64,000 nucleotides of DNA, taken from a virus. Below the pieces are notes generated by a model. It made no database searches, was not told the DNA's origin, and was given only the letters and a program-made list of their open reading frames with translations. The translations under genes were made by a program, and so were the position numbers. The stretch is from the IMG/VR virus record IMGVR_UViG_3300026382_000010, positions 1 through 64,000 of that record. One strand, given 5' to 3'. Of the stretch, positions 1,810-55,518 are shown piece after piece (within the stretch, counting starts at the first letter, position 1; each line of letters opens with the position of its first letter).

Positions 1810-3129
1810 TTAAGCATCGGGTTTATCTTTATCTTCTCTAACCCGAATAAATGTAGGATGTCTAAGTTTTCCATCTTTTGTAACTTCTAGAAATTTAACT
1901 TCAACTATTTTACCAATAATTTCTTCAGGATGTTCGAACCATCTTCTCCTATATTCGTATGGTAAACCTGAAACTTTTACATATTGATCCTTATACTTAA
2001 CCAGTAGTGCTTGAATTTCATTTGGACGTTTTGTAGAAGGTACTACATCAACAACAAGTAAATCTAAGGTGTAAAACTTTTTGAATTTTATCCAATAGTA
2101 CGTTCGTTTACCAGGTTCGTAAGGTGCATTACCTAATTTAAGCATTAAACCTTCCCAGCCTTTTGCAACAAGCTTATCGGTTAGTTGTAGAAGATATGCA
2201 ATACTTGGTTTTTCTACTTTATGATGTGGCACGTATATAAGTTTTTCATCATCGTAATGCGATAAAAATTTTTTCAAGTCTTCTTTACGTTTGATATAAG
2301 GACGAGTGTAAACAGAGTTTGCAAGTTCATTTGGATTGCCAATTAAAAAGTCATAGAGGTAATATTTAACAAGTTTTTCTTGACTTGGACTTAATTTGTA
2401 TTTTCTAGAGCTGGAAAAGGCCATTGAGATATTCCAATTTTTTGCATAAATTTCACCGTCGAGGATATAAGTTTCTCCTTTTGGAACTACGGATTGGTAT
2501 TTTTTAATATGAGGAGCAATTACTTCTTCAAAATACGTCATACGTTTACCATTTCTACTATAGCACATGAAGTAGTCTCTGGTTACGAAAGTTACGCAAC
2601 GTAAACCGTCAATTTTAACTTCCCAAAAGCAAGGTTGAGTTTCTAAAAAGTACTCTAATTTACTTTCAGGTACTTTTTCAAACGATTGAGCAAGCATTGG
2701 GTAAAACTTAGTTTCGGTATCTACATCTCCTTTAATTGCTTTTTTGATAAGTTGTAAACCTACTCCTATACGCAAATCTTTTGCAAGTATCCTTTTGTAC
2801 CATTTGCAATGAAATTCATCGCATTTCTTAAAAAATTCTTGAAGTGTTTTAAGCAGTACATTGCCTGATAATTTTCTGAGAGCAATTGCAGTCGCAATGT
2901 TCCAGAATTCTTCAAATGAGGTTGTATATTTTTTACCGCATGGGATTTTTTGAAGGGTTTCGTAAGAAACGTTGAACTTCAAGTTTTTATCAAATACAAG
3001 TTTTACGATTTTCATAAAGATTGCGGGATATAGTTCATATAGTTCGCGAATGATTTCTATTTTAACTTTTTGTTTTGTTTCTTTTTCGAGACGTTCAAAT
3101 ATTTTAAAAATCTCTGTTTCAGGTTTCAT
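1810..3129 (-). CDS. ATP-dependent DNA ligase
   Basis: Joins nicks in duplex DNA during replication and repair using ATP. The nucleotidyltransferase signature KIDGLR is at residues 172-177, making K172 the adenylated lysine. Further motifs follow in the expected order: LDGEIY (motif III), GWEGLMLK (IV) and WIKFKK (V). A C-terminal OB-fold region ends in HPTFIRVREDK, typical of the superfamily. The N-terminal 160 residues correspond to a DNA-binding domain. At 439 residues the length suits phage and archaeal ligases. It heads a leftward run of DNA-metabolism genes that also includes the recombinase and a Cas4-like nuclease. Confidence 0.95.
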   Translation of the reverse strand: MKPETEIFKIFERLEKETKQKVKIEIIRELYELYPAIFMKIVKLVFDKNLKFNVSYETLQKIPCGKKYTTSFEEFWNIATAIALRKLSGNVLLKTLQEFFKKCDEFHCKWYKRILAKDLRIGVGLQLIKKAIKGDVDTETKFYPMLAQSFEKVPESKLEYFLETQPCFWEVKIDGLRCVTFVTRDYFMCYSRNGKRMTYFEEVIAPHIKKYQSVVPKGETYILDGEIYAKNWNISMAFSSSRKYKLSPSQEKLVKYYLYDFLIGNPNELANSVYTRPYIKRKEDLKKFLSHYDDEKLIYVPHHKVEKPSIAYLLQLTDKLVAKGWEGLMLKLGNAPYEPGKRTYYWIKFKKFYTLDLLVVDVVPSTKRPNEIQALLVKYKDQYVKVSGLPYEYRRRWFEHPEEIIGKIVEVKFLEVTKDGKLRHPTFIRVREDKDKPDA

Positions 3130-10273: not shown

Positions 10274-10903
10274 GTGAAAGCTGCAGATGTAATGAGAATT
10301 TTGCAGATTAGTCGATCAACTCTCTGGCTTTATGTGAAACAAGGAAAAATCAGAGTCAGAAAGTTGCACAATGGTAGATACGATTATAATGATGAAGATG
10401 TCTGGAAACTTGCTGGTAAATGTAAGGAAAGAATGAATGTGATTTATGCAAGAGTTTCTACTCATAGCCAAAAAACCAGTTTAGAGAGTCAAGTTAAGCA
10501 ATGCGAGGAATACTGTAGAGCTAATGGGTTAACTGTACATAAAGTTTTTAAAGATATCGGATCTGGTATTGACTTTGAAAAGCGAAAACAGTTTATGCAA
10601 ATGTTTGAGTTAATCAAGCAATTCAAAGTTGATAAAGTAATTGTTACATACAAAGATCGCCTATCTCGTATTGGATTTGAATTTTTAAGAAAAGTTTTTG
10701 AATCATACGGTACTAAAATAGTAGTCATCAACGAGTCTAAGTATGATGATGAAAAACTTGCTGAAAAAGAAATCTTTCAAGAATTAATTTCAATTATTCA
10801 CTCTTTTGCAATGAGACTTTATAGCAATAGAAAAAAGAGACTGAAATTACAATATTGCGAAGAGGAGCTAAAGCATGAGCTCAAATGTGATAAAAGTACA
10901 TAA
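10274..10903 (+). CDS. tnpA: IS607-family serine recombinase TnpA
   Basis: Mobilises the element by serine-based strand exchange. Residues 1-50 form a MerR-like winged helix (VMRILQISRSTLWLYVKQGKIRV), followed by the resolvase fold with the nucleophile S62 in YARVSTHSQ. The conserved pattern LESQVKQCEEYC, then IGSGIDFEKRKQF and VIVTYKDRLSRIGFEF, matches the catalytic domain of IS607 transposases. It is 209 residues, as expected. The start is a GTG at 10274 with GGAGGT upstream. Its end overlaps tnpB. The reading frame is intact, so the enzyme may be active. Confidence 0.95.
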   Translation: MKAADVMRILQISRSTLWLYVKQGKIRVRKLHNGRYDYNDEDVWKLAGKCKERMNVIYARVSTHSQKTSLESQVKQCEEYCRANGLTVHKVFKDIGSGIDFEKRKQFMQMFELIKQFKVDKVIVTYKDRLSRIGFEFLRKVFESYGTKIVVINESKYDDEKLAEKEIFQELISIIHSFAMRLYSNRKKRLKLQYCEEELKHELKCDKST

Positions 10904-12569
10904 AGCATTGAGGTTAACCTCAAAGTATGCAAATAAAGACAAAAAACAATTCATTTTTCAAATACTTGATGATGTCAAACGTATGAAAAACCAAATGTCT
11001 GAATTTATGTATAATCGAATTCATGAATTAGTTGAATGTTTGGAAAATAAAAAGAAGAAAAGTCAATTTATTGGTAATTACAAACAATGGAAACACTCAG
11101 TTCTTCCAGCGCATACTATTCAAACTTTATTTTCCGATGTTATGACTTGCTATTTGAATCACATCAAGCAACTTATTAATAATGCGAAAAAGAAAATTCG
11201 CATTCAATCTAAACTAAATATTTCAAAAAGAAGTCAACGTATCTCTATTGAATTTAAGAAATCTCCTTTATGCAGATTAATATCGTATTTATTATCACTA
11301 TCCAACTTACAAGAATACACTTCTTTTTCACATGTAGAAGCCAAACTTATAAGCAAAGAGTTGCAAGAATTTTGGCAAAATCTCTCTTTCAAAAAGAAGA
11401 TGCTTGTTATAAATATTGTCAATAGCAAAATTCAGAGAATACTAAAAAGAATCAAACGTATTCAATTTACCTCTGGAAGCTTCAGATTAACCGCTTCTGG
11501 TTACTCTTACGAAATTGTGAAAGATGAAGATAATTCACTTTTCAAATACTTTTTAAAACTAGCTTTCAAATCTAAATCTATCTATCTTCCACTGCTTTTA
11601 GAAGATAATCCTAAAAACAAAAGAAGCAAAAAGTACTTTCAAAGAATACTTACTGGAAATTTAAAAAAGCAAATCTTTTTGATTGACCGAAGAAATTCTA
11701 CAAATAGTAAGAAACTCTTTTTTGTAGTAGTAAGCGAAGAAAATTTGACATTTCATGAATTTGGAAAATTTGTTGGATGCGATGTAAATCTAACATCTGA
11801 AAAGTTTCTTACATTCTCCAACGGATTTTCCGTTGAATTTGATAAAAGATTTCTCAAAGAATACCTCTCGTTTTTAGAAGAAATCGATAGAAAAGGATAT
11901 CGTAATCTGACTAAAGATGAAAAGAGAAAACTGAGAAAATATACAAAAAGAATTGAGTGGTATATTGAGTTTCTCATTGCAAATGTTATAAACAAACTCA
12001 AACAACTTGGATATACAGATATAGTACTTGAAGATTTAGATTTATTTAACAATGGAAAATTTTATGTTAATCTCTTTGGATACAAAATGAAACTCAATAG
12101 ATTTGTAAGATTTCTCAGACTAACTGGATTAAAGGAAAAATTCATTCGTATAGCTCATAACCGAGGAATTAGAGTACATTTAACACACTCCGCATATACT
12201 TCACAAATGTGTCCTTGTTGCGGACACATTTCTAAAAAGAATCGAAAAAGTCAATCTGAGTTTGTATGCGAAAAATGCGGTTTCCAATATGATGCTGATA
12301 GAATTGCTAGTGTAAATCTTTTACTAAGAATCAAACATAAAGAAATTTGCAAAAAACTTCATACTCAAACAAAGGATACTAAAGAATTCAGAGCAAAACC
12401 GATGACCTCTAGAAGTATTTTGTCAATCCTTGAAAAGTATTTTGATTTTATGACATTGTCTAAATTACTGGTACAGTTGGTAGATGTTCTACCAACTGAG
12501 TTTCTTGCTAGATACTTTCGACATAAACGTATGATTTTATGCGGGTTTCATCATGCGGTTTCCCGATAA
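10875..12569 (+). CDS. tnpB: TnpB RNA-guided nuclease
   Basis: TnpB cuts DNA under guidance of an RNA made from the element's right end and helps the element persist. The RuvC-like core is visible: D303 in VGCDVN, E386 in IVLEDLD, and D475 in YDADRIASVN. A zinc finger CPCC...CEKC sits between the last two. At 564 residues it is longer than many TnpBs (about 400), with an extended Lys-rich N-terminal half. The C-terminal tail after the last catalytic Asp overlaps the presumed guide-RNA region. All key residues are present, so it may be active. Confidence 0.93.
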   Translation: MSSNVIKVHKALRLTSKYANKDKKQFIFQILDDVKRMKNQMSEFMYNRIHELVECLENKKKKSQFIGNYKQWKHSVLPAHTIQTLFSDVMTCYLNHIKQLINNAKKKIRIQSKLNISKRSQRISIEFKKSPLCRLISYLLSLSNLQEYTSFSHVEAKLISKELQEFWQNLSFKKKMLVINIVNSKIQRILKRIKRIQFTSGSFRLTASGYSYEIVKDEDNSLFKYFLKLAFKSKSIYLPLLLEDNPKNKRSKKYFQRILTGNLKKQIFLIDRRNSTNSKKLFFVVVSEENLTFHEFGKFVGCDVNLTSEKFLTFSNGFSVEFDKRFLKEYLSFLEEIDRKGYRNLTKDEKRKLRKYTKRIEWYIEFLIANVINKLKQLGYTDIVLEDLDLFNNGKFYVNLFGYKMKLNRFVRFLRLTGLKEKFIRIAHNRGIRVHLTHSAYTSQMCPCCGHISKKNRKSQSEFVCEKCGFQYDADRIASVNLLLRIKHKEICKKLHTQTKDTKEFRAKPMTSRSILSILEKYFDFMTLSKLLVQLVDVLPTEFLARYFRHKRMILCGFHHAVSR

Positions 12570-12570
12570 T
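12400..12570 (+). ncRNA. Candidate omega (right-end) RNA of TnpB
   Basis: The 3' end of tnpB doubles as a structured RNA in this family. Here CAGTTGGTAGA and TCTACCAACTG (about 12474-12498) form an 11-bp perfect stem with a 3-nt loop inside the coding sequence, and further on GCGGG (12541) can pair with CCCG (about 12563), enclosing CATCATGCGGTTT. The guide would start just beyond, around 12571, and copy the flanking DNA. The 5' limit given is a guess. Confidence 0.5.
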
Positions 12571-12655
12571 TTAATTTTCGAATGTTTTCGAATATTTCAA
12601 AATAAAAACCGGATGTCATAGTGATTCAAAAATACTAAAAGAAGGAGGCGTTATT

Positions 12656-12973
12656 ATGGAGTCTATTCACTGTGAAATCCTCGAAAACCTTTGTAATACT
12701 ACATGTAATCCTAAACTTGTAGACATTTTTCAGCTTTTAGAGGAATATCTGAAACCTTTTTCTAAAATCTACTACGGCATATCGCAATCCGAATTTACAA
12801 TTTACCATCCTAATTTCAAAATCACTATTCGTTGCATTTCTGAAGAACCTTTTGAATTTGTCCTCGATTATAACAACAAGGAGTTATTCAGCACTACTGA
12901 CATAAATAAAGTAATAGAATTTCTGGAGTATACTTTATTACCAGACTACGAAATGGGCTTTATCTCAGATTAG
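12656..12973 (+). CDS. Hypothetical 105-residue protein heading the RNR operon
   Basis: Start ATG 12656 follows AAGGAGGCG. It is a small acidic alpha/beta protein with four Cys, not arranged in a clear zinc motif. It is the first rightward gene after the mobile element. The 80-bp gap to nrdD suggests co-transcription, but no functional hint is visible. Confidence 0.7.
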   Translation: MESIHCEILENLCNTTCNPKLVDIFQLLEEYLKPFSKIYYGISQSEFTIYHPNFKITIRCISEEPFEFVLDYNNKELFSTTDINKVIEFLEYTLLPDYEMGFISD

Positions 12974-13054
12974 TCAATTTGCATAACATAATAATGCATC
13001 ACTGAGAGCTAAGATGTATTGCTAAACCTTTGAATAGCAAGGAGGATTAAGAAA

Positions 13055-14605
13055 ATGAATAAGTATCACCAGATTATCCACGAGTTTATTAAAAACACAG
13101 ATATTGCAAGAAATAATGCAAATTTCATCAGATCTCTCCCAGCTCTTGAACATGTAGTTGTCGGCGAGGTTATGAAAGACTATCTCTTTAATCAAATTTA
13201 CAAAGGGTTACCAGTTAGAGAGCATCACGAAACTGGTTGGACTTACCATCATCAAGCATTTAAATTATCACCTTACTGTATTGGACTCTCTGCAAAAGAT
13301 GTTGCATTTTATGGTTTGAAATCTAATGCTAAAAATGCTAGAAATGGTAAACCTCCAAAACGTCTCGAAACTCTTTTTATGCAATGTGCAAATTTAATTT
13401 GTTTGATTGCACAAGAAGTATCAGGTGCAACTTCATTAAATGACATTAGTACAGTTGCTGCAGGGTATTTATGGTATCTTGAAACAAATGGAATTAAAAC
13501 GTACACAGATTACGAGTTGATTAATATCTGGCAAGAATTTCTTTTCAACATAAATCTTCCATTTCGCTCAGGCAACTCTCCATTTAGTAATATAACTCTT
13601 GAGTTTGGAAAACCAAATAAAATTCTCGCAAAACACAATGTAATTTACGCTGGAAAATTACTTGATAAGACTTATTCTGAAATTCCAAGTGAGTATTTTG
13701 ATAGAATTAACGATGCATTTATTGAGGCAATGAAAATTGGTGATGGAAATGGAAATCCGTTTACATTTCCACTAATTACAGTAAATATCACAGAAGATTT
13801 TGATAGAAATAATCCAATTTGGAAAAAGCTACTTAGAGAATCAGAGTACTTCGGTGGATTTTATGTGCAAAACTATCTCAAAAAGCCATTTCTTGAATCT
13901 GAATATAAAAAATACAATCCAAATATGAGACCGTTTGATGAAGACATGATATATAGTAATTGTTGTAGAATGCTATTTAATGTCTCCACAGTTGAAGCAG
14001 TTACAGGAAGTAATCCTTTTCACTCTGGAGCAGGAGTTGGTGGAATAGGTGTATATGCAATAAACTTAAACAGACTCCTATTTCTTGCAAAAGACAATTT
14101 CGAGCTTTTGAAGGAGATGCTTTCCTATTTAATGGAAATTGGAGCAAAAGCATTACAGAGAAAAAGAAAATGGATTATGCAACACTATGAAGACTTATAT
14201 CCATATCTTTCATTTTATCAAAGAACAGATAAATCCCTCTTCAATATCTTTTCAATTGTAGGTGGACATGAAGGTATGGTTAATGCAGGATTCAAAGGAG
14301 GGCTTGCAAATCCTCAGGCAAAAGAATACGCTCACAAAATCTTACAATTCATTCATGAAAAACTTAATGAATTCATGGAAAGAGATAAGGTTTTATATTC
14401 ACTTGAATATGCTCCTTCAGAAAATGCCGCAGTAAAACTTGCACAAAAAGATTTACAATTTGCATATCAAATTGCTCAACTTATAAACAACAATCAAAAG
14501 TGTACTCTATTTCATGATGAAAAACTCAATGACTTTGTAAATAGAGCAATAGAAATCCATGGTGAAAAAATATTTGACATACCAGAGGGAGTAGTGCTAG
14601 AATGA
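13055..14605 (+). CDS. nrdD: Anaerobic (class III) ribonucleotide reductase, catalytic barrel part lacking the glycyl radical domain
   Basis: Reduces ribonucleotides to deoxyribonucleotides without oxygen. NrdD landmarks run in order: SPFSNITLEFG, FPLITVNITEDFD, SNCCRMLFN (C303/C304, probable radical-transfer cysteines), GAGVGGIGVYAINLNRL, GHEGMVNAGFKG, and SLEYAPSENAAVKLAQKD near the C-terminus. The protein stops at residue 516, about 35 residues past the last motif, with no zinc site and no RVxGY-type glycyl radical loop. Those are encoded separately at 15436-15951, so NrdD is split. RBS AAGGAGG is well placed. Its TGA overlaps the next small frame (ATGA). Confidence 0.93.
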   Translation: MNKYHQIIHEFIKNTDIARNNANFIRSLPALEHVVVGEVMKDYLFNQIYKGLPVREHHETGWTYHHQAFKLSPYCIGLSAKDVAFYGLKSNAKNARNGKPPKRLETLFMQCANLICLIAQEVSGATSLNDISTVAAGYLWYLETNGIKTYTDYELINIWQEFLFNINLPFRSGNSPFSNITLEFGKPNKILAKHNVIYAGKLLDKTYSEIPSEYFDRINDAFIEAMKIGDGNGNPFTFPLITVNITEDFDRNNPIWKKLLRESEYFGGFYVQNYLKKPFLESEYKKYNPNMRPFDEDMIYSNCCRMLFNVSTVEAVTGSNPFHSGAGVGGIGVYAINLNRLLFLAKDNFELLKEMLSYLMEIGAKALQRKRKWIMQHYEDLYPYLSFYQRTDKSLFNIFSIVGGHEGMVNAGFKGGLANPQAKEYAHKILQFIHEKLNEFMERDKVLYSLEYAPSENAAVKLAQKDLQFAYQIAQLINNNQKCTLFHDEKLNDFVNRAIEIHGEKIFDIPEGVVLE

Positions 14606-14688
14606 TAAGCAAAATTCTATTTGTATTGGGAGTTATAGTAGGTACACTATTTGCACTTTCGCAGATTTTATTTTCACGCAAAAAATAA
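14602..14688 (+). CDS. 28-residue single-helix membrane peptide
   Basis: ATG 14602 overlaps the nrdD stop (ATGA). The peptide is MISK followed by a hydrophobic helix of about 20 residues (ILFVLGVIVGTLFALSQILF) and a SRKK tail, which fits a small inner-membrane protein with a cytoplasmic basic end. It fills most of the gap between nrdD and nrdG. It is too short to assign, and translation depends on coupling to nrdD. Confidence 0.5.
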   Translation: MISKILFVLGVIVGTLFALSQILFSRKK

Positions 14689-14712
14689 ATAGAAAAAGGG
14701 AGTATTATAGCT

Positions 14713-15411
14713 ATGTATTTGGATAAAGAAACGATTTTAGTTGCCGATTACATTGTAACTTATAAAGACGAACCAAATACTGCATCGCTTCTATTTCACA
14801 TTCCTGGTTTAATTTGCAATCTAGATTGCTATAAATGTCACAACAAATATTTTTCAAAGCAAAACAAAAAACCTTATTACACTTACAATGAACTCAAGGA
14901 TATTTTAAAGAAAGCAAAACTTATGCAAATTGAGTCTATTATAATTTCAGGAGGAGAGCCAACTCTCCTCCTCTCTCCTTTAATTGAACTTCTGGAGTTT
15001 ATAAAGGATTTCGGTTTTAAATTTATCAGAATTGATACAAATGGTACAAAACCTGATGCAGTAAAGTATTTACTTGAAAAAGCGCTTGTAACTCATTTTG
15101 CAATTGATGTAAAGATTCCACTGGATGTAGAAAATAGTCGATGGCATGAAAATTTAGAATTATGGGATCAAGTTTTATTTTCAGGTAAAAAGAAATTTAG
15201 TGAAGTAATCGAATATACAATAAATCTTAAGCAAACCTTTGAATATCTTAGGCTAGCAAAAAACTTGCTAAAACGAAGAATTCTATTGAGAACTGTAAAA
15301 TACCCCCAATATACCCCACATATTCTAGATTGGATATATCAGAATATTACCGAACTTGAATTTCCATATGAATATCAGGTTAATCAGTTTTATGAACCAG
15401 AAAAACTTTAA
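14713..15411 (+). CDS. nrdG: Anaerobic RNR activase, radical SAM protein (NrdG-like)
   Basis: Creates the glycyl radical on NrdD by splitting S-adenosylmethionine. The CX3CX2C cluster motif is in ICNLDCYKCHN, where CNL.C..CHN is the NrdG form, and SGGEPTLL is the SAM-binding GGEP motif. RIDTNGT is the following conserved strand. At 232 residues it is longer than the shortest NrdGs (about 155), nearer to pyruvate-formate-lyase activases. Position between the two nrdD parts settles the choice over QueE, which I considered because of the phage's queuosine-type genes. Confidence 0.88.
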   Translation: MYLDKETILVADYIVTYKDEPNTASLLFHIPGLICNLDCYKCHNKYFSKQNKKPYYTYNELKDILKKAKLMQIESIIISGGEPTLLLSPLIELLEFIKDFGFKFIRIDTNGTKPDAVKYLLEKALVTHFAIDVKIPLDVENSRWHENLELWDQVLFSGKKKFSEVIEYTINLKQTFEYLRLAKNLLKRRILLRTVKYPQYTPHILDWIYQNITELEFPYEYQVNQFYEPEKL

Positions 15412-15435
15412 GAAAATCAAGGAGGAAACGCAGAA

Positions 15436-15951
15436 ATGGTAAAGCCAAAAATGTTTGTATCAGGTTCTGTTGATGGACAAAGAGTATTCTTAACCTCTGG
15501 ATTTCAAGCGCCATCTTCAGCTCCATTATTTGAGCAAATAGATGTTGCAGCACATTTTCAATCTTACGCAACAGGTGGAGCAATTTTGCATCTTTTTACA
15601 GTTGAAAATTTAAGCGAGAAAGAACAAGAGGATTTAATCTTCAGAATATTTGAAAACTTCCCAGTGCAATATATGACTAAAACTCCATTTTTAACTGTAT
15701 GCAACGAATGTGGACATAAAGCTGTAGGATTACATCATGTATGCCCAAATTGTAGAGGAACAGATGTTACGCTCTACTCTAGGCCAATTGGATATTTTAG
15801 ACCAGTATTAAGAAAAGAAATATCTGCAGACTTATCTGATGCTCGCTTTAAATTCTGGCTTGACGGTAGAATTGAAGATTTTAGAACCAGATACAGAGTA
15901 AGTAAAAAAGACGTTGAAAGTATTGTTGAAGAACTCTCTTCTATCTCCTAA
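15436..15951 (+). CDS. nrdD: Separate C-terminal glycyl radical domain of NrdD
   Basis: 171 residues that match the C-terminal part of class III RNR. Early on comes YATGGAILHLF, equivalent to the Y-TGG-H segment of full-length enzymes. Then C89-x2-C92 and C103-x2-C106 form the zinc site, and SRPIGYFRPV carries the radical glycine G119. Start ATG 15436 has AAGGAGG upstream and lies 25 bp after nrdG, in one operon with the barrel part. The two pieces must assemble in trans for the radical glycine to reach the active site. A terminator follows directly. Confidence 0.92.
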   Translation: MVKPKMFVSGSVDGQRVFLTSGFQAPSSAPLFEQIDVAAHFQSYATGGAILHLFTVENLSEKEQEDLIFRIFENFPVQYMTKTPFLTVCNECGHKAVGLHHVCPNCRGTDVTLYSRPIGYFRPVLRKEISADLSDARFKFWLDGRIEDFRTRYRVSKKDVESIVEELSSIS

Positions 15952-15962
15952 GTCAACGAGTA

Positions 15963-15999
15963 AAAAAGGATCCTCCCCGAAAAGGGGAGGATCCTTTTT
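15963..15999. terminator. Bidirectional terminator between convergent operons
   Basis: AAAAAGGATCCTCCCC and GGGGAGGATCCTTTTT pair over 16 bp around a GAAAA loop. It lies between the convergent RNR operon and the minus-strand topoisomerase block and has A and T runs on both sides. On the plus strand TTTTTGTCTTG follows. Confidence 0.93.
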
Positions 16000-16005
16000 G
16001 TCTTG

Positions 16006-16383
16006 CTAAAATAGCGTAAGTAAACTCAAAATACAGAAAATAGTATTTCCAACAAGCGCTGCAAAGTATGTAAATGAATTTGGATAAACAAGTGCAATTG
16101 TGAGAAGCAAAATTTGTATAGAGATTAATGTAAGTGCAAGTTTTAGTTTTGTAAGCAGTTTTTGAAAACGAATCATACTGTTAAAACTTGCGTCTTGTAA
16201 GGTTTTAGTGTTCTTTTCAGTGATTTTTCTTAATAATGCTAATGCTTGTTTTAAATCCGAAATTTCGTGGTGTAAAGTATCTGTACTAGTTTCAACATGT
16301 TTTAAAGTACTATGAATCTGCGCAAGTAAGTCATTTTGAGATTCAATTAGACGATAAATACTTGGTTGGTTTTCGAAATTCAT
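16006..16383 (-). CDS. Coiled-coil protein with two C-terminal membrane helices
   Basis: 125 residues. The first 70 have a heptad coiled coil (IESQNDLLAQIHSTLKHVE, then EISDLKQALALLRKITEKN), followed by two hydrophobic helices (LALTLISIQILLLTIALVY and YFAALVGNTIFCILSLLTLF). AGGAGGG precedes ATG 16383. It overlaps the 325-residue gene upstream by 4 bp. The plan resembles small phage membrane anchors, but the function is unknown. Confidence 0.75.
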   Translation of the reverse strand: MNFENQPSIYRLIESQNDLLAQIHSTLKHVETSTDTLHHEISDLKQALALLRKITEKNTKTLQDASFNSMIRFQKLLTKLKLALTLISIQILLLTIALVYPNSFTYFAALVGNTIFCILSLLTLF

Positions 16384-17357
16384 GTCCCTCCTTCCTGTGC
16401 TGCTTTTTTAATACCTTCCTCAAATTTAGACAACCATTGGTCTAACATTTTCATAACAACGTCTTCCTCGTCCTTTAATTTTTTTGGGAGGAATAGAGGT
16501 TCTATCAGCATTTTAGAGATAACGGCTCCAAAAGTTTTCCAAGCAACATTTATAATAATTGCAACTAAATTTAGTTTAGCTTTTTGTAGCAGATAGATTA
16601 TTAGTTCGATGAGAATATCTAATCCTTCTACTGCAGTGTATGCATAAAGTGGCGATTGTTTTGGATTTGGTTCAGTAAAAATATTTCTTCCAAATTTTAA
16701 AACGTATTCTGCAACTGCACTATAAAGTATAGCATATTTTCCTAGTTCAGCCTGAGCCGATTTCTGTAACACACTACGTTTGTAGTACTCAAGCAACGTA
16801 TTAAAAATTTTACGTCCAATATATTGCAAGAAATATGCAAGTTCAAGTTTTAGCATACGTAATGTATGTAGAATTACATGTTCAGTTATAGTAGGAACCC
16901 ATGCAAAAGGAGCAATTATAGCTAAAGCTAAATCTCTAAATGCAATATCAAGGTAAGCATATTTTACTGCAAGCTCGATATCAGTTGTTTTATAGCGATT
17001 AAGTAGACGATTTTTGATTGGAGGTATTTTATCAACGAGTTTTGCAAGTAGTTTTAAGTATGTACGATAAAAGTCTTCAATTTTTTTACTTACTGCTAGA
17101 AGAAGGAGACATACAATGATAACGAATTTTTCAATGATATTTAGATCTGCCAAATATGAGGCAACGATGAGGGCTTTATCTAGACGTCCAAGTTTTTCGA
17201 TTTTCTTTTGTAGTTTTTGTAAACCTTCTTCTGTAGTCATCAATTTTCTGATTTCTTTAGATGTCCAACCTGCCAATTTTTTATCTCTTAACGCTTTGGC
17301 AATAACTTTACTAGATGTAAAACAAAAACGATTAAGTTTTAATAATGCTTCGCTCAT
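16380..17357 (-). CDS. Hypothetical 325-residue helical, probably membrane-associated protein
   Basis: All-helical, with a hydrophobic segment near residue 80 (FVIIVCLLLLAVSK) and further apolar helices (LALAIIAPFAWVPTI, ILIELIIYLLQKAKL, LVAIIINVAWKTFGAVI). The ends are basic or acidic and soluble. It is bracketed by overlaps with the topoisomerase gene upstream and the small membrane protein downstream, so the three are one unit. A GAGGT site precedes ATG 17357. No family is recognised. It is odd to find membrane proteins cotranslated with a topoisomerase. Confidence 0.75.
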   Translation of the reverse strand: MSEALLKLNRFCFTSSKVIAKALRDKKLAGWTSKEIRKLMTTEEGLQKLQKKIEKLGRLDKALIVASYLADLNIIEKFVIIVCLLLLAVSKKIEDFYRTYLKLLAKLVDKIPPIKNRLLNRYKTTDIELAVKYAYLDIAFRDLALAIIAPFAWVPTITEHVILHTLRMLKLELAYFLQYIGRKIFNTLLEYYKRSVLQKSAQAELGKYAILYSAVAEYVLKFGRNIFTEPNPKQSPLYAYTAVEGLDILIELIIYLLQKAKLNLVAIIINVAWKTFGAVISKMLIEPLFLPKKLKDEEDVVMKMLDQWLSKFEEGIKKAAQEGGT

Positions 17358-20380: not shown

Positions 20381-21073
20381 ATGTTTTACGAAATTGGAAA
20401 AGAATTTGAGGTATGTTTTGCACACCGTGTAAGAACTCAGGATCATCCTTTAGGTAAATGCAAAAGAATTCATGGACATAATTACACAATTGTCCCTATT
20501 TTAATAGGAGATATTGATACAAAAACCCAAATGGTTTTAGATTACTATTACTTTTCCGACTTCAAAAAGTTTTTAGATGAGTATTTCGATCATCGTTTTG
20601 TTGTTGATATAAATGATGCTGAATTACTCTCCGAGCTAGCTATCAAAGAGGATACTACAATTGAAATTTGTACGCCATATACTAAAGAATCCTGTAAATT
20701 TAGTGAAATTCCTGAAAAAGAAGGTTGCTGTAATTTATGGCTTGCAAAAGTAATTGATGACTCTATTATAAAAGGATCCTTGATAATAATTCCAGTTACG
20801 CCTACTGCAGAAAATCTAGCAAAATTTTTAGCAGAATTTTTTGCACATCAACTCATTACAAAATTAGACGATAGAATTTTACAGAATATTCGTACACTAG
20901 GAATGAAAGTAAAAGAAACTTCAAAAACCCATGCATTATACGGATTAGATTTTTCAGAACTTTATCAAAATCTTACAGATATTGAGGAAATGTTAAGTCC
21001 AGATGAAAATTTAACAGAGTTACTTACAGAAGAAGCACTTACAGAATTTATACAAGAGGAGGAGGAAAAATAA
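20381..21073 (+). CDS. queD: 6-carboxy-tetrahydropterin synthase (QueD), enlarged
   Basis: Converts dihydroneopterin triphosphate to carboxy-tetrahydropterin, the second step towards preQ0. The zinc and catalytic residues are visible: H in CFAHRV, C and H-x-H in GKCKRIHGHNY, catalytic H in FDHRFVVD, the family signature PTAENLAKFLAEFF, and a final E in VKETSKTHALY. The family is usually 120-150 residues. This one has 230 because of an insert of about 50 residues before PTAEN, with a CC pair and further Cys, and an acidic C-terminal extension of about 50. GGAGGT is well placed, and the stop shares a base with thyX. Confidence 0.9.
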   Translation: MFYEIGKEFEVCFAHRVRTQDHPLGKCKRIHGHNYTIVPILIGDIDTKTQMVLDYYYFSDFKKFLDEYFDHRFVVDINDAELLSELAIKEDTTIEICTPYTKESCKFSEIPEKEGCCNLWLAKVIDDSIIKGSLIIIPVTPTAENLAKFLAEFFAHQLITKLDDRILQNIRTLGMKVKETSKTHALYGLDFSELYQNLTDIEEMLSPDENLTELLTEEALTEFIQEEEEK

Positions 21074-39278: not shown

Positions 39279-39890
39279 ATGTTTGCCCACGAAAATAAAC
39301 TTCTCAGCGAAAAAGAAAAAGCTAAAATCAAAAAGAAACTCGAAAAAGAATTTGCAAAAATTTTAGAAATTCTAGGTTTTGATTGGCAAAACGATCCCAA
39401 TTTACAAGGTACTCCCAGAAGAATTGCCAAAATGTATGTTGAAGAATTACTTTCAGGTTGCTATACTGAACCGCCAAAAATAACTGTATTTCCAAATGAT
39501 AATCCAGACGAATTACTTATCGTAAGTCCTATCAAAGTAAAATCATTATGTAGTCATCATTTTGTACCATTTTATGGATATGCACATATTGCTGTAATTA
39601 CTGGCGATAAATTAATGGGACTTTCAAAATATGCACGTATCGTTGAATGGTTTGCAAGAAGGCCACAATTACAAGAAAATCTGACAAAGCAAATTGCAGA
39701 TTATATTCAAGAACTCATCAATCCAAAGGGTGTACTTGTAGTTTTAGAATGTAGACATCTATGCATGGGTGTTAGAGGAGTAAACGATGAACATGCGCGT
39801 TTCATAACTCAAGCAAAAACTGGAGTCTTCAGAGAGGACTACGGTTTAACTCAAAGAGTTTACGGAATGATGCATCTCAAAAAATTCTAA
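39279..39890 (+). CDS. folE: GTP cyclohydrolase I
   Basis: Turns GTP into dihydroneopterin triphosphate, the first step towards preQ0 (and folate). Conserved elements are all present: TPRRIAKMYVEEL, SLCSHHFVPFYGYAHIAV (zinc Cys and catalytic His), KYARIVEWFARRPQLQE, and LECRHLCMGVRG (the second zinc Cys with neighbouring His and Cys), then ARFITQAKTGVF. At 203 residues the length is normal. GAAGGAGG precedes ATG 39279. With queD, queC and a GATase gene in the same genome, a DNA-base-modification role is more likely than folate synthesis. Confidence 0.96.
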   Translation: MFAHENKLLSEKEKAKIKKKLEKEFAKILEILGFDWQNDPNLQGTPRRIAKMYVEELLSGCYTEPPKITVFPNDNPDELLIVSPIKVKSLCSHHFVPFYGYAHIAVITGDKLMGLSKYARIVEWFARRPQLQENLTKQIADYIQELINPKGVLVVLECRHLCMGVRGVNDEHARFITQAKTGVFREDYGLTQRVYGMMHLKKF

Positions 39891-45019: not shown

Positions 45020-45538
45020 ATGAAGCCAGTATTTACTAAAGAAGAAATTCAAAAAACCATTGCATGTCTTGCAAAAGTTTTAAGTAAACATTTTGAAACC
45101 AAAAAAGTTTTAGTAGTTGGAATAATGGAGGGAGCTTTATTTTTTCTCGCTGATTTAATGCGTCAGCTTCCTGAAAATTTCACCTATTGTACCATTCATT
45201 TAAAGAGCTACGTTAGCGACGGTAACCAAGGGGAACCTAAACTTTACGACGAAAAATATCTAAAAGACGTACTTAATAAAATTGAACCTGACATAATAAT
45301 TATTGCTGATGAAATTTGCGACACTGGAACTACAATCAATTATCTTAAAACTACATTGCAGGAAATATTTGGTTTACAACCAGTGGAAATTTACACATGT
45401 GCTCTTATTGTAACCAAAACTGGAAAAGACAAAGTTGATTTCTATGGATTTGAATATACAGATGATAAATGGCTTTACGGTTACGGAATGGATTTAGATG
45501 AATGGAGGAGAAACCTCGATGAAATCTACTCAAAATAA
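45020..45538 (+). CDS. hpt: Hypoxanthine/guanine phosphoribosyltransferase
   Basis: Salvages purine bases by joining them to PRPP. The PRPP-binding signature IIIIADEICDTGTT is unmistakable, preceded by VVGIMEGALFFLADLM and the flexible-loop region SYVSDGN. At 172 residues it has the family's normal size. GGAGGT precedes the ATG. A phage copy may recycle host purines or, more speculatively, handle a deazapurine base. Endonuclease III begins inside its 3' end. Confidence 0.93.
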   Translation: MKPVFTKEEIQKTIACLAKVLSKHFETKKVLVVGIMEGALFFLADLMRQLPENFTYCTIHLKSYVSDGNQGEPKLYDEKYLKDVLNKIEPDIIIIADEICDTGTTINYLKTTLQEIFGLQPVEIYTCALIVTKTGKDKVDFYGFEYTDDKWLYGYGMDLDEWRRNLDEIYSK

Positions 45539-46223
45539 CATGTATCCAAAATTATCATGTAAAACCTTTTGTAAGCTTATTTATAAAGAACTTGTAGATT
45601 TCTTTAGGAAAAATCGGGTATTTATTCCTAATCGTAAATTGCATGAACTATACAATCAAAACGAAGAACCATGGATGTTTGTTATCAAAGTTATCTTATC
45701 TGCACAAAGTAAAGATAAGACAGTTAACCAAGTTGCAAAAGTATTATTCCAAAAATATCCAACGCTTGAAAAATTGGCAAATGCAAAAATCGAAGACGTA
45801 GAAAGAATTATCAAACCAATTCCATTTTACAGGAAAAAAGCGGTAATGATTATAAATGCTGCAAAAATTTTGTACAATGAATTCAATGGAAATATTCCTC
45901 ATACGTATGAAGATTTGTATAAGTTACCAGGTGTTTCTCGAAAATCTGCTGCAACAATTCGCGCAATTATTCATGAAATTCCATCAATTATCGTTGATCG
46001 ACATGTTATACGCGTATTAAATCGACTACGTTTTGTAAATAATGTTGAGGATCCAATTTATGTTGAATCTCGTATTGAAAAATGTTGTCCTAAAGAAATC
46101 TGGATTCCACTATGCTTGCTTCTTATACTCTTCGGAAGATATATCTGCACAGCAAGAAACCCTCAATGCCATAGATGTCCTTTGCAAAAATATTGCTTTT
46201 ACAGTCTTTCCAACAGAAAATAA
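45519..46223 (+). CDS. nth: Endonuclease III-type DNA glycosylase
   Basis: Excises oxidised pyrimidines. Helix-hairpin-helix LPGVSRKSAATI supplies the catalytic Lys, and VDRHVIRVLNRL supplies the catalytic Asp (VDTHV in most relatives). A C-terminal CTARNPQCHRCPLQKYC is the four-cysteine 4Fe-4S loop. ATG 45519 has GGAGGAG at good distance; an ATG seven codons upstream lacks one. It overlaps the phosphoribosyltransferase by 20 bp. Confidence 0.93.
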   Translation: MKSTQNNMYPKLSCKTFCKLIYKELVDFFRKNRVFIPNRKLHELYNQNEEPWMFVIKVILSAQSKDKTVNQVAKVLFQKYPTLEKLANAKIEDVERIIKPIPFYRKKAVMIINAAKILYNEFNGNIPHTYEDLYKLPGVSRKSAATIRAIIHEIPSIIVDRHVIRVLNRLRFVNNVEDPIYVESRIEKCCPKEIWIPLCLLLILFGRYICTARNPQCHRCPLQKYCFYSLSNRK

Positions 46224-54137: not shown

Positions 54138-54779
54138 ATGTGTACTACTATCATGTATCACGGAAAGCTTTCACTATTTAAGCAAATCATTCCTACGCCA
54201 GAAAAATTAAAACGTATTTGGTTTTATCGCGGATATGATGCTTTGGGACATCTATTTATCAACTATAGCACAAATTTTGCAAAAAAATACGTTGGTCATT
54301 TTTGGGATAAAGAGCATAGTTCAGAAAATATAAAGGAGGTTTTTGAGAAAGCAGTTTACAATATTTACGAGCGAAAGCATAAAGGCGATCCTGAAGTACT
54401 AATTGCTTTATATGCGCGTGCAATTCCGGAAACTGAACCAATCGATACCCATTTACCTTTAATTCTAGAAATTCAACCACTGGATTTGCGCGACTATATT
54501 TTTTTACATCATGGTATAGTATACGAGTTTGATAACGTAAAGGTAACTGACGAAATAATCGATACTCAACTTGTTGCATTTTATATCGACTCGATGTCTG
54601 AAAAACTTGAAGTATCTGAAATAGCAAGACATCTAAAAGAGAAAACCAAAGGAATGTCTCTATACATTCTCTACCACAAAATGCTAAAGAAAATTATCGT
54701 CGTGGAAGCAGGGTTAAAAGCATTTACTTATCAGTTTAAGGATGGAATGCTCGTATCAAATTTTGCACTCTTTGTATAA
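54138..54779 (+). CDS. Stand-alone class II glutamine amidotransferase domain
   Basis: Releases ammonia from glutamine. ATG 54138 follows AAAGGAGGT and leaves C2 as the N-terminal nucleophile after Met removal. YRGYDALG (30-37) matches the RGYDSAG of GlmS-type domains, YAR (92-94) the substrate Arg, LHHGIV (123-128) the H-N-G-I oxyanion segment but with His for Asn, and IDTQ (141-144) the S-D-T-E site. It is followed after 31 bp by queC, which suggests the split form of the Gat-QueC enzyme that makes archaeosine-type bases in some phages and archaea. Confidence 0.78.
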   Translation: MCTTIMYHGKLSLFKQIIPTPEKLKRIWFYRGYDALGHLFINYSTNFAKKYVGHFWDKEHSSENIKEVFEKAVYNIYERKHKGDPEVLIALYARAIPETEPIDTHLPLILEIQPLDLRDYIFLHHGIVYEFDNVKVTDEIIDTQLVAFYIDSMSEKLEVSEIARHLKEKTKGMSLYILYHKMLKKIIVVEAGLKAFTYQFKDGMLVSNFALFV

Positions 54780-54810
54780 AAAAGAAGAAGGAAAAAGGAG
54801 GTATATAAAA

Positions 54811-55518
54811 ATGCTATATCGAAATCTTACAGTACAAGTAGATCCTATTGAAAGAAAATTTTATCTTGAGGGAAATGTAAACTGTAAAACTGCACTTGTT
54901 TTATACTCCTCAGGATTGGAATCAATCACCAACGTCTATCTTTTATTACGCTTGAATATAAAACCATACTTGCTTCACTTTACATACAATCATTTGGCCG
55001 CAGAAATTGAACTCATAAAAACAAGAGAGCTTGCAAAAAAATTAAATCTACCGCTTTACATCATTGAAATGCCTGAATTGGCACCTATCTCTAATTTTGA
55101 TGAAGAAGAAGCAGAATCTAGTTCACATTACATTCCTGTTCGTAATACGCTTTTTATTACTTACGCTCTAAAAATTGCTGAAGAAAATCAATTGGACGCA
55201 GTAGTATTGGGAGCAAATTTATCAGAATCTATGACTTATCCTGATAACTCCTACCCATATATATTTGGATTCGGATATGTTGCAAATTACGCAACGCAAT
55301 TTCCAAATACTGTGACTATCTTAACCCCTTTAATAAACCTAACGAAAACATATCTCGTAAAATTGGGCGAACTACTAAATGTAGATTATTCAATGTCAAA
55401 TTCATGCTACTATCCAAATGAAAATGGAGAGCCATGTAATAAGTGTGGTTCATGTATTTTACGAAACATAGCATTTGAGCGTGCAGAAGAACTCGGGAGG
55501 TTTACACTGACTTTCTAG
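54811..55518 (+). CDS. queC: QueC-like preQ0 synthase (PP-loop ATPase)
   Basis: QueC converts carboxy-deazaguanine to preQ0 with ATP and ammonia. The PP-loop is LYSSGLESI (31-39), a variant of SGGxDS. YIPVRNTLFITYAL and VVLGANLSES follow the family plan, and CYYPNENGEPCNKCGSC is the four-cysteine zinc site. At 235 residues the length is normal. ATG 54811 with AAGGAGGT is preferred over the longer open frame. The GATase gene just upstream may let it amidate the nitrile further, to an archaeosine-type base. Confidence 0.92.
   Translation: MLYRNLTVQVDPIERKFYLEGNVNCKTALVLYSSGLESITNVYLLLRLNIKPYLLHFTYNHLAAEIELIKTRELAKKLNLPLYIIEMPELAPISNFDEEEAESSSHYIPVRNTLFITYALKIAEENQLDAVVLGANLSESMTYPDNSYPYIFGFGYVANYATQFPNTVTILTPLINLTKTYLVKLGELLNVDYSMSNSCYYPNENGEPCNKCGSCILRNIAFERAEELGRFTLTF

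Follow-up and report, generated by a model that had tools for sequence, protein, structure and literature searches.

A probable two-chain class III ribonucleotide reductase, with the radical glycine on a separate small polypeptide, in five phage lineages

In class III ribonucleotide reductases (RNRs), oxygen-sensitive enzymes that reduce ribonucleoside triphosphates to provide DNA precursors, the activase NrdG generates a radical on a glycine of the catalytic subunit NrdD, and this glycine hands the radical to a cysteine of the finger loop. In the phage DNA analysed here (the window, 64,000 nucleotides, positions 1 to 64,000 of the 106,051-bp virus record IMGVR_UViG_3300026382_000010), two genes, nrdD-N and nrdD-C, take the place of a single nrdD, and from their sequences they very probably encode a functional class III (anaerobic, glycyl-radical) reductase with a catalytic subunit divided between two polypeptides. 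The two-gene structure is conserved in five lineages of uncultured phages, has a single origin, retains the catalytic residues and is under purifying selection. The best reading of these observations is an obligate two-chain enzyme, the chains of which would reassemble non-covalently.

Two genes that together cover one NrdD

The initial annotation of this DNA had described a 516-residue NrdD that stops short of the zinc site and the radical glycine, followed further on by a 171-residue gene, and both open reading frames (ORFs) are indeed present, with nrdD-C starting 831 nt past the end of nrdD-N. The layout of the operon is as follows.

13055..14605, + strand: nrdD-N, large chain, 516 aa, most of the ten-stranded barrel (Pfam NRDD, AlphaFold2 model)
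14602..14688, + strand: hydrophobic 28-aa ORF between nrdD-N and nrdG, overlapping the nrdD-N stop and outside the conserved architecture
14713..15411, + strand: nrdG-like radical-SAM activase gene, 232 aa, with the cluster motif CNLDCYKC (Pfam Radical_SAM)
15419..15425, + strand: Shine-Dalgarno sequence AAGGAGG of nrdD-C
15436..15951, + strand: nrdD-C, small chain, 171 aa, comprising the end of the barrel core (~70 residues), zinc ribbon and glycyl-radical loop (Pfam NRDD)
15962..15999, + strand: palindrome resembling an intrinsic terminator, directly after nrdD-C and readable on both strands (sequence, scan)

The Pfam NRDD match of the large chain covers profile positions 2-432 (E 2.4e-63) and that of the small chain positions 437-546 (E 1.9e-20); since the two matches are complementary and do not overlap, one NrdD, barrel and C-terminal domain included, is covered once by the two chains jointly. 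In place of the single-polypeptide catalytic subunit of class III NrdD, two ORFs are thus found in the window and in four other lineages, and nrdD-N lacks an ATP-cone. A full-length NrdD elsewhere, which the initial annotation had named as grounds for regarding these genes as remnants, is missing, as the whole 106,051-bp record contains neither a second NRDD match nor the class I/II large-subunit domain PF02867. The break is not a product of sequencing or assembly error either, the former having been another of the annotation's reservations: the independent contig IMGVR_UViG_3300026484_000545 is collinear with the window over 21,548 bp, with 40 mismatches (one of them inside the operon), no gap and the same two-gene structure.

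The palindrome behind nrdD-C is probably the end of the operon, but the scan found three such palindromes against 1.8 expected, so that each is weak evidence taken singly. At the end of nrdD-N, a sigma-70-like promoter match (14574-14603; 11/12, with TG before the -10 element) belongs to a type of which chance matches are common; if real, it would permit expression of nrdG and nrdD-C without nrdD-N.

The break falls inside the barrel core

Aligned with single-chain relatives, the break is located in the loop that leads from the PAE..LARxDL helix into the IFVQG...YLTSG segment. In the P. copri NrdD chain, residues 604-737 align to the small chain; the core of that enzyme spans residues 123-671 and its glycyl-radical domain residues 676-739 (PMC11226230), although the numbering of the PDB chain may be shifted by about 4 residues relative to these published limits. 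In T. maritima NrdD, moreover, the zinc ribbon forms an insertion after the last barrel strand and ahead of the glycyl-radical loop (PMC4493059). These alignments place the break inside the barrel core, ~70 residues ahead of the glycyl-radical domain, and indicate that the small chain includes the strand preceding the zinc ribbon and completes the barrel. The initial description of a barrel plus a separate glycyl-radical domain is therefore to be revised: the small gene does carry the zinc site and radical glycine attributed to it (C89, C92, C103, C106 and G119), but not exactly these, as ~70 residues of the barrel core come with them. For this reason a free-floating radical domain, on which NrdG had been suggested to act, appears less likely than a constitutive complex.

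Structural models agree with this assignment. The AlphaFold2 model of nrdD-N (pLDDT 83, pTM 0.84) has only class III NrdD structures as its top matches in the PDB (4con, E 5.3e-18), NrdD alone falling below E 1e-3, and the best fold matches of the nrdD-C model, which is of moderate confidence (pLDDT 75), are to the C-terminal part of T. maritima NrdD (4coi, E 4.9e-4). Each chain model thus matches the corresponding part of solved NrdDs and the barrel fold of RNRs and glycyl-radical enzymes. The large chain additionally ends in a tail, which is found in all five split lineages at a length of ~30-50 aa and for which a helix is predicted at residues 490-507 of nrdD-N with low pLDDT. The functional residues and the tail are positioned as follows.

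13277..13279, + strand: codon of C75, active-site cysteine, equivalent to T4 C79 (alignment)
13964..13966, + strand: codon of C304, thiyl-radical cysteine, equivalent to T4 C290, in the motif SNCCRM (alignment)
14468..14602, + strand: C-terminal tail of the large chain, ~45 residues, without counterpart in single-chain NrdD (alignments)
15700..15753, + strand: zinc-ribbon cysteines C89, C92, C103 and C106 of nrdD-C, aligning to T4 C543, C546, C561 and C564
15790..15792, + strand: codon of G119, glycyl-radical site, in SRPIGYF, equivalent to T4 G580 (alignment)

The alignment to T4 NrdD that the initial annotation proposed as a check thus finds the T4 equivalent of every one of these residues. 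Both active-site cysteines that characterize class III NrdD reside on the large chain and the radical glycine on the small chain, where a four-ligand zinc ribbon precedes the glycyl-radical loop. The zinc-ribbon cysteines are kept in all five small chains, and the radical glycine is invariant across 28 sequences.

The nrdG-like protein matches Pfam Radical_SAM (E 1.8e-14), and its top NCBIfam match is NrdG2 (E 3.6e-22; 78.7 bits, under the curated cut-off of 131). Genes of this NrdG-like kind are next to nrdD or in its vicinity in every one of the five split lineages, as they are in most single-chain relatives. Inside the nrdG of the window there is a G+C-rich hairpin of ten pairs (14949-14972, AGGAGGAGAGCC/AACTCTCCTCCT).

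The same break in five phage lineages

An initial scan of genome contigs with the small chain alone gave no match, and the split relatives were found by pattern scans using the small chain together with alignments. Writing N, G and C for nrdD-N, nrdG and nrdD-C, the order is G-N-C in L005 (IMGVR 3300026382_000018), whose chains of 543 and 169 aa are 2 nt apart, and in L098 (IMGVR 3300026512_000011), with ~19 nt between the chains; N-G-C in L097 (IMGVR 3300026512_000234); and G-QueC-N-C in L136/L137 (IMGVR 3300005573_000054 / 3300002182_000013), two contigs that are 99.99% identical and come from two metagenomes. In pairwise comparison of the five split lineages, the large chains are 53-73% identical and the small chains 41-66%. 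The records of the window, L005, L097 and L098 have few other genes in common, mostly at 25-40% identity, so they represent distinct phages, and no further NRDD match occurs in any of the other split records. As the same break is kept in five distinct lineages, it looks like a working two-part enzyme, not a broken gene.

Of the genes placed between the two parts by the initial annotation, both are there in the window, but neither is constant: the 28-residue membrane peptide is absent from the other four lineages, which have neither space nor a counterpart for it, and nrdG changes place, standing between N and C in the window and L097 only. N and C adjoin in three lineages. We infer, tentatively since the trees give no firm branching order inside the split clade, that this adjacency is probably ancestral and nrdG a later insertion; for the same reason the N and C trees do not establish mosaicism.

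The two genes might encode one continuous NrdD after all, put together through splicing of an intron or intein, trans-splicing, frameshifting or read-through, as in the cases of T4, phage 949, phage c-st and the Jug phages. Introns and inteins often interrupt nrdD in phages (PMC3653736, PMC12363816), two relatives of the split gene (L097 and L098) carry inteins in the large chain, and in L136 (2420-4489) N and C share one frame with only a single TAG between them. In the phage of L136, however, TAG is an ordinary stop, used by 35 of 147 genes; the standard code fits, at 94% coding density, and recoding of TAG was rejected. In L005 and L098, N and C are in different frames, and a spacing of 2 and ~19 nt leaves no room for an intron. 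No Rfam match was found in 12500-16500 of the window, which also disposes of the intron considered in the initial annotation, and the junction holds no endonuclease or intein domain, the intervening genes being nrdG and the 28-aa ORF. Moreover, the small chain is provided with a start and a ribosome-binding site of its own, with purine-rich sites upstream of the small gene in four lineages (window, L005, L097 and L098); its head lacks an HN-Cys/Ser/Thr splice junction, and the translated tail that closes the large chain does not resemble the N-half of an intein. A split intein was ruled out, the intein motif being absent at the junction. Altogether, restoration of a single chain is very unlikely.

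Selection, inteins and the question of decay

Fragmentation is common in phage RNR genes (PMC3653736), and the nrdD of Vibrio phage 355E48.1 is annotated as fragments, so that degenerating, non-functional remnants of a broken gene might be suspected here. Such decay is hardly credible: across the five lineages, the frames are open and every catalytic residue is kept at the identities given above, and both parts are retained although gene order has been rearranged. Between the window and L097, dN/dS is ~0.15 for N and ~0.24 for C, well below 1 for both pieces, with dS near saturation.

The inteins bear on the same question. In L097 (142-2697), a 342-aa intein with an HNH domain sits directly before the C304 equivalent; in L098 (2649-5981), a 172-aa mini-intein occupies the same position and an additional 422-aa LAGLIDADG intein lies directly before the C75 equivalent, so that the L098 enzyme comprises two genes and two inteins. 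Splicing at these sites restores the catalytic cysteines, and inteins placed there are tolerated only if splicing yields a needed protein, which suggests that the large chain is probably in use.

Origin of the split form

The split sequences group as a single clade (support 100/100) in the joint tree as well as in separate trees of N and C, and an AU test rejects grouping of the window and L097 with unsplit relatives (p 0.0018). The sister group is single-chain and consists of the Thermaerobacter metagenome-assembled genome (MAG) L016 (642 aa, D-G order) and five phage contigs (L100 and L102-L105); these, rather than the T4-type NrdD chosen for comparison in the initial annotation, are the nearest single-chain relatives, at 38-41% identity. 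The trees and conservation together indicate an ancient break of single origin that selection has since maintained in several phage lineages.

Among cellular sequences, none of the 80 loci closest to the large chain gave a match of the split form. Nor is it present among the matches listed for larger samples, 151 genomes from the class to which the Thermaerobacter MAG belongs and 398 from its phylum, a listing in which rare cases may be missed; in these matches the C-terminal part is in a long frame, the short frames checked are contig ends, and one more, in G311, begins 8 bases from the end of its contig.

Proposed mechanism

Both chains would be produced from one operon. Most of the barrel would come from the large chain, together with the substrate site and the active-site cysteines; the small chain would contribute the final ~70 residues of the barrel core along with the zinc ribbon and the radical glycine. 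The chains would dock non-covalently by barrel completion, possibly aided by the C-terminal tail of the large chain, perhaps as a clamp. The NrdG-like activase would then make the glycyl radical on G119 of the small chain, either in the complex or on the small chain itself, and the radical would pass from G119 to C304 of the large chain, starting each reduction. The glycyl-radical domain is highly mobile already in single-chain NrdD (PMC11226230), and in the case of pyruvate formate-lyase a separate small chain, YfiD, restores activity to the cleaved enzyme (PMC8683613); with these precedents, activation and radical delivery between chains are plausible.

That YfiD precedent also raises the alternative that the small protein is a YfiD/GrcA-like spare part repairing an oxygen-cleaved NrdD of host or phage. 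YfiD is a stand-alone glycyl-radical domain that completes cleaved pyruvate formate-lyase, with barrel-strand replacement proposed, and spare parts may exist for further glycyl-radical enzymes (PMC8683613). However, neither this virus record nor the other split records contain a complete NrdD to be repaired, the small chain co-occurs in all five lineages with a large chain lacking exactly that part, and it passes the cut-off of NRDD only, with no Gly_radical match up to E 1. A repair role is accordingly most improbable, and the obligate two-chain enzyme is preferred. Within that enzyme, the small chain might still serve as an exchangeable radical cartridge, activated by NrdG as a free chain or in a loose complex, then docked, and replaced after oxygen cleavage at the glycine. 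Although this is rather doubtful, the large barrel chain would, if it were true, outlive damage fatal to single-chain NrdD, and a constitutive rescue of the YfiD type would be built into the reductase.

Several points weigh against the two-chain enzyme. The physical complex, its activation and the activity of the two chains are deduced from genes and from models of single chains, and the nrdG-like product is taken as the cognate activase from its gene position, with a NrdG2 match below the cut-off. The virus records may cover only parts of their genomes, the host may provide a reductase during infection, and in the L136/L137 lineage read-through of the TAG could yield some single chain.

Neighbouring genes

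Just upstream of the operon lies an IS607-type transposon (10274-12569), with a serine resolvase followed by a TnpB/Cas12f-like protein. The window also carries genes of a 7-deazaguanine pathway, possibly for DNA modification, namely PTPS/QueD-like (20381-21073), GTP cyclohydrolase I (39279-39890) and QueC (54742-55518), the last of which is also found beside split nrdD in L136. Further genes encode an ATP-dependent DNA ligase (1810-3129) and a phage-encoded endonuclease III with an iron-sulphur motif (45498-46223).

Comparison with known systems

Split reductases (NrdJab, Aeh1 NrdA) and intron- or intein-interrupted phage nrdD are already known. In the literature searched, however, no report was found of a class III reductase conserved as two genes with no mobile element between them, or of a glycyl-radical enzyme in which the radical subunit is a separate chain in every case; the initial annotation's remark that no natural two-chain form of this exact kind was known agrees with this, while the form itself is no singleton. 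With the single-chain NrdDs of T4, T. maritima and P. copri, the present system has in common the domains, barrel fold, active-site cysteines, zinc ribbon, radical glycine and adjacent NrdG; it differs in its two chains, the extra tail on the large chain and the lack of an ATP-cone, and the residue before CCR is Asn instead of T4 Met288.

The interrupted or fragmented nrdD genes of phages (T4, 949, c-st, phiAS4, the Jug phages and Vibrio phage 355E48.1) likewise have their coding sequence in pieces, but mostly through introns, inteins or endonucleases, with splicing shown for some, whereas here one old break without a mobile element at the junction is shared by five lineages. One Jug-phage nrdD junction (230 aa / 91 aa) is also without splicing evidence (PMC12363816) and may be another two-chain case. 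In Vibrio phage 355E48.1 (L130, MW824376, 1493-4453), the annotation divides nrdD into three fragments, with another ORF among them; the third fragment, of only 77 aa, holds the radical end, and this break is probably of the intron type. YfiD/GrcA and T4 Y06I, the pyruvate formate-lyase cofactors, resemble nrdD-C in providing a radical glycine from a separate small chain (PMC8683613), but they are an optional repair of an enzyme with its own glycine, belong to the Gly_radical family and have no NrdD-type zinc ribbon.

Parallels in architecture also come from other RNR classes. The split class II enzyme NrdJa/NrdJb of P. aeruginosa and relatives and of Thermus phage phiYS40 also pairs a barrel chain with a zinc-finger C-terminal chain; both chains are needed, and the enzyme works as (NrdJa-NrdJb)2 (PMC4520616, PMC9669993), the extra C-terminal domain of NrdJa being reminiscent of the large-chain tail (PMC9669993). 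NrdJab differs in using adenosylcobalamin, and NrdJb mediates disulfide exchange and has no radical site; the present chains, moreover, belong to NRDD and not to the class II barrel family PF02867. In Aeromonas phage Aeh1, a phage catalytic subunit, NrdA, is likewise made as two chains, from which an active enzyme reassembles (PMC2988022, PMC3653736), but it is class I and its break arose by insertion of the homing endonuclease gene mobE, which is still present.

In characterised class III reductases, as far as found, the radical glycine is on the barrel chain. A natural two-chain form lets the question of whether a radical glycine can act from another chain be asked directly, and it bears on what holds the C-terminal part in the barrel, on whether NrdG needs the assembled enzyme or the small chain only, and on whether a damaged radical part can be swapped. 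The 171-aa small chain would be convenient for electron paramagnetic resonance, nuclear magnetic resonance and NrdG-complex studies. Together with NrdJab (class II) and Aeh1 NrdA (class I), the two-gene nrdD points to natural splits in each of the three RNR classes.

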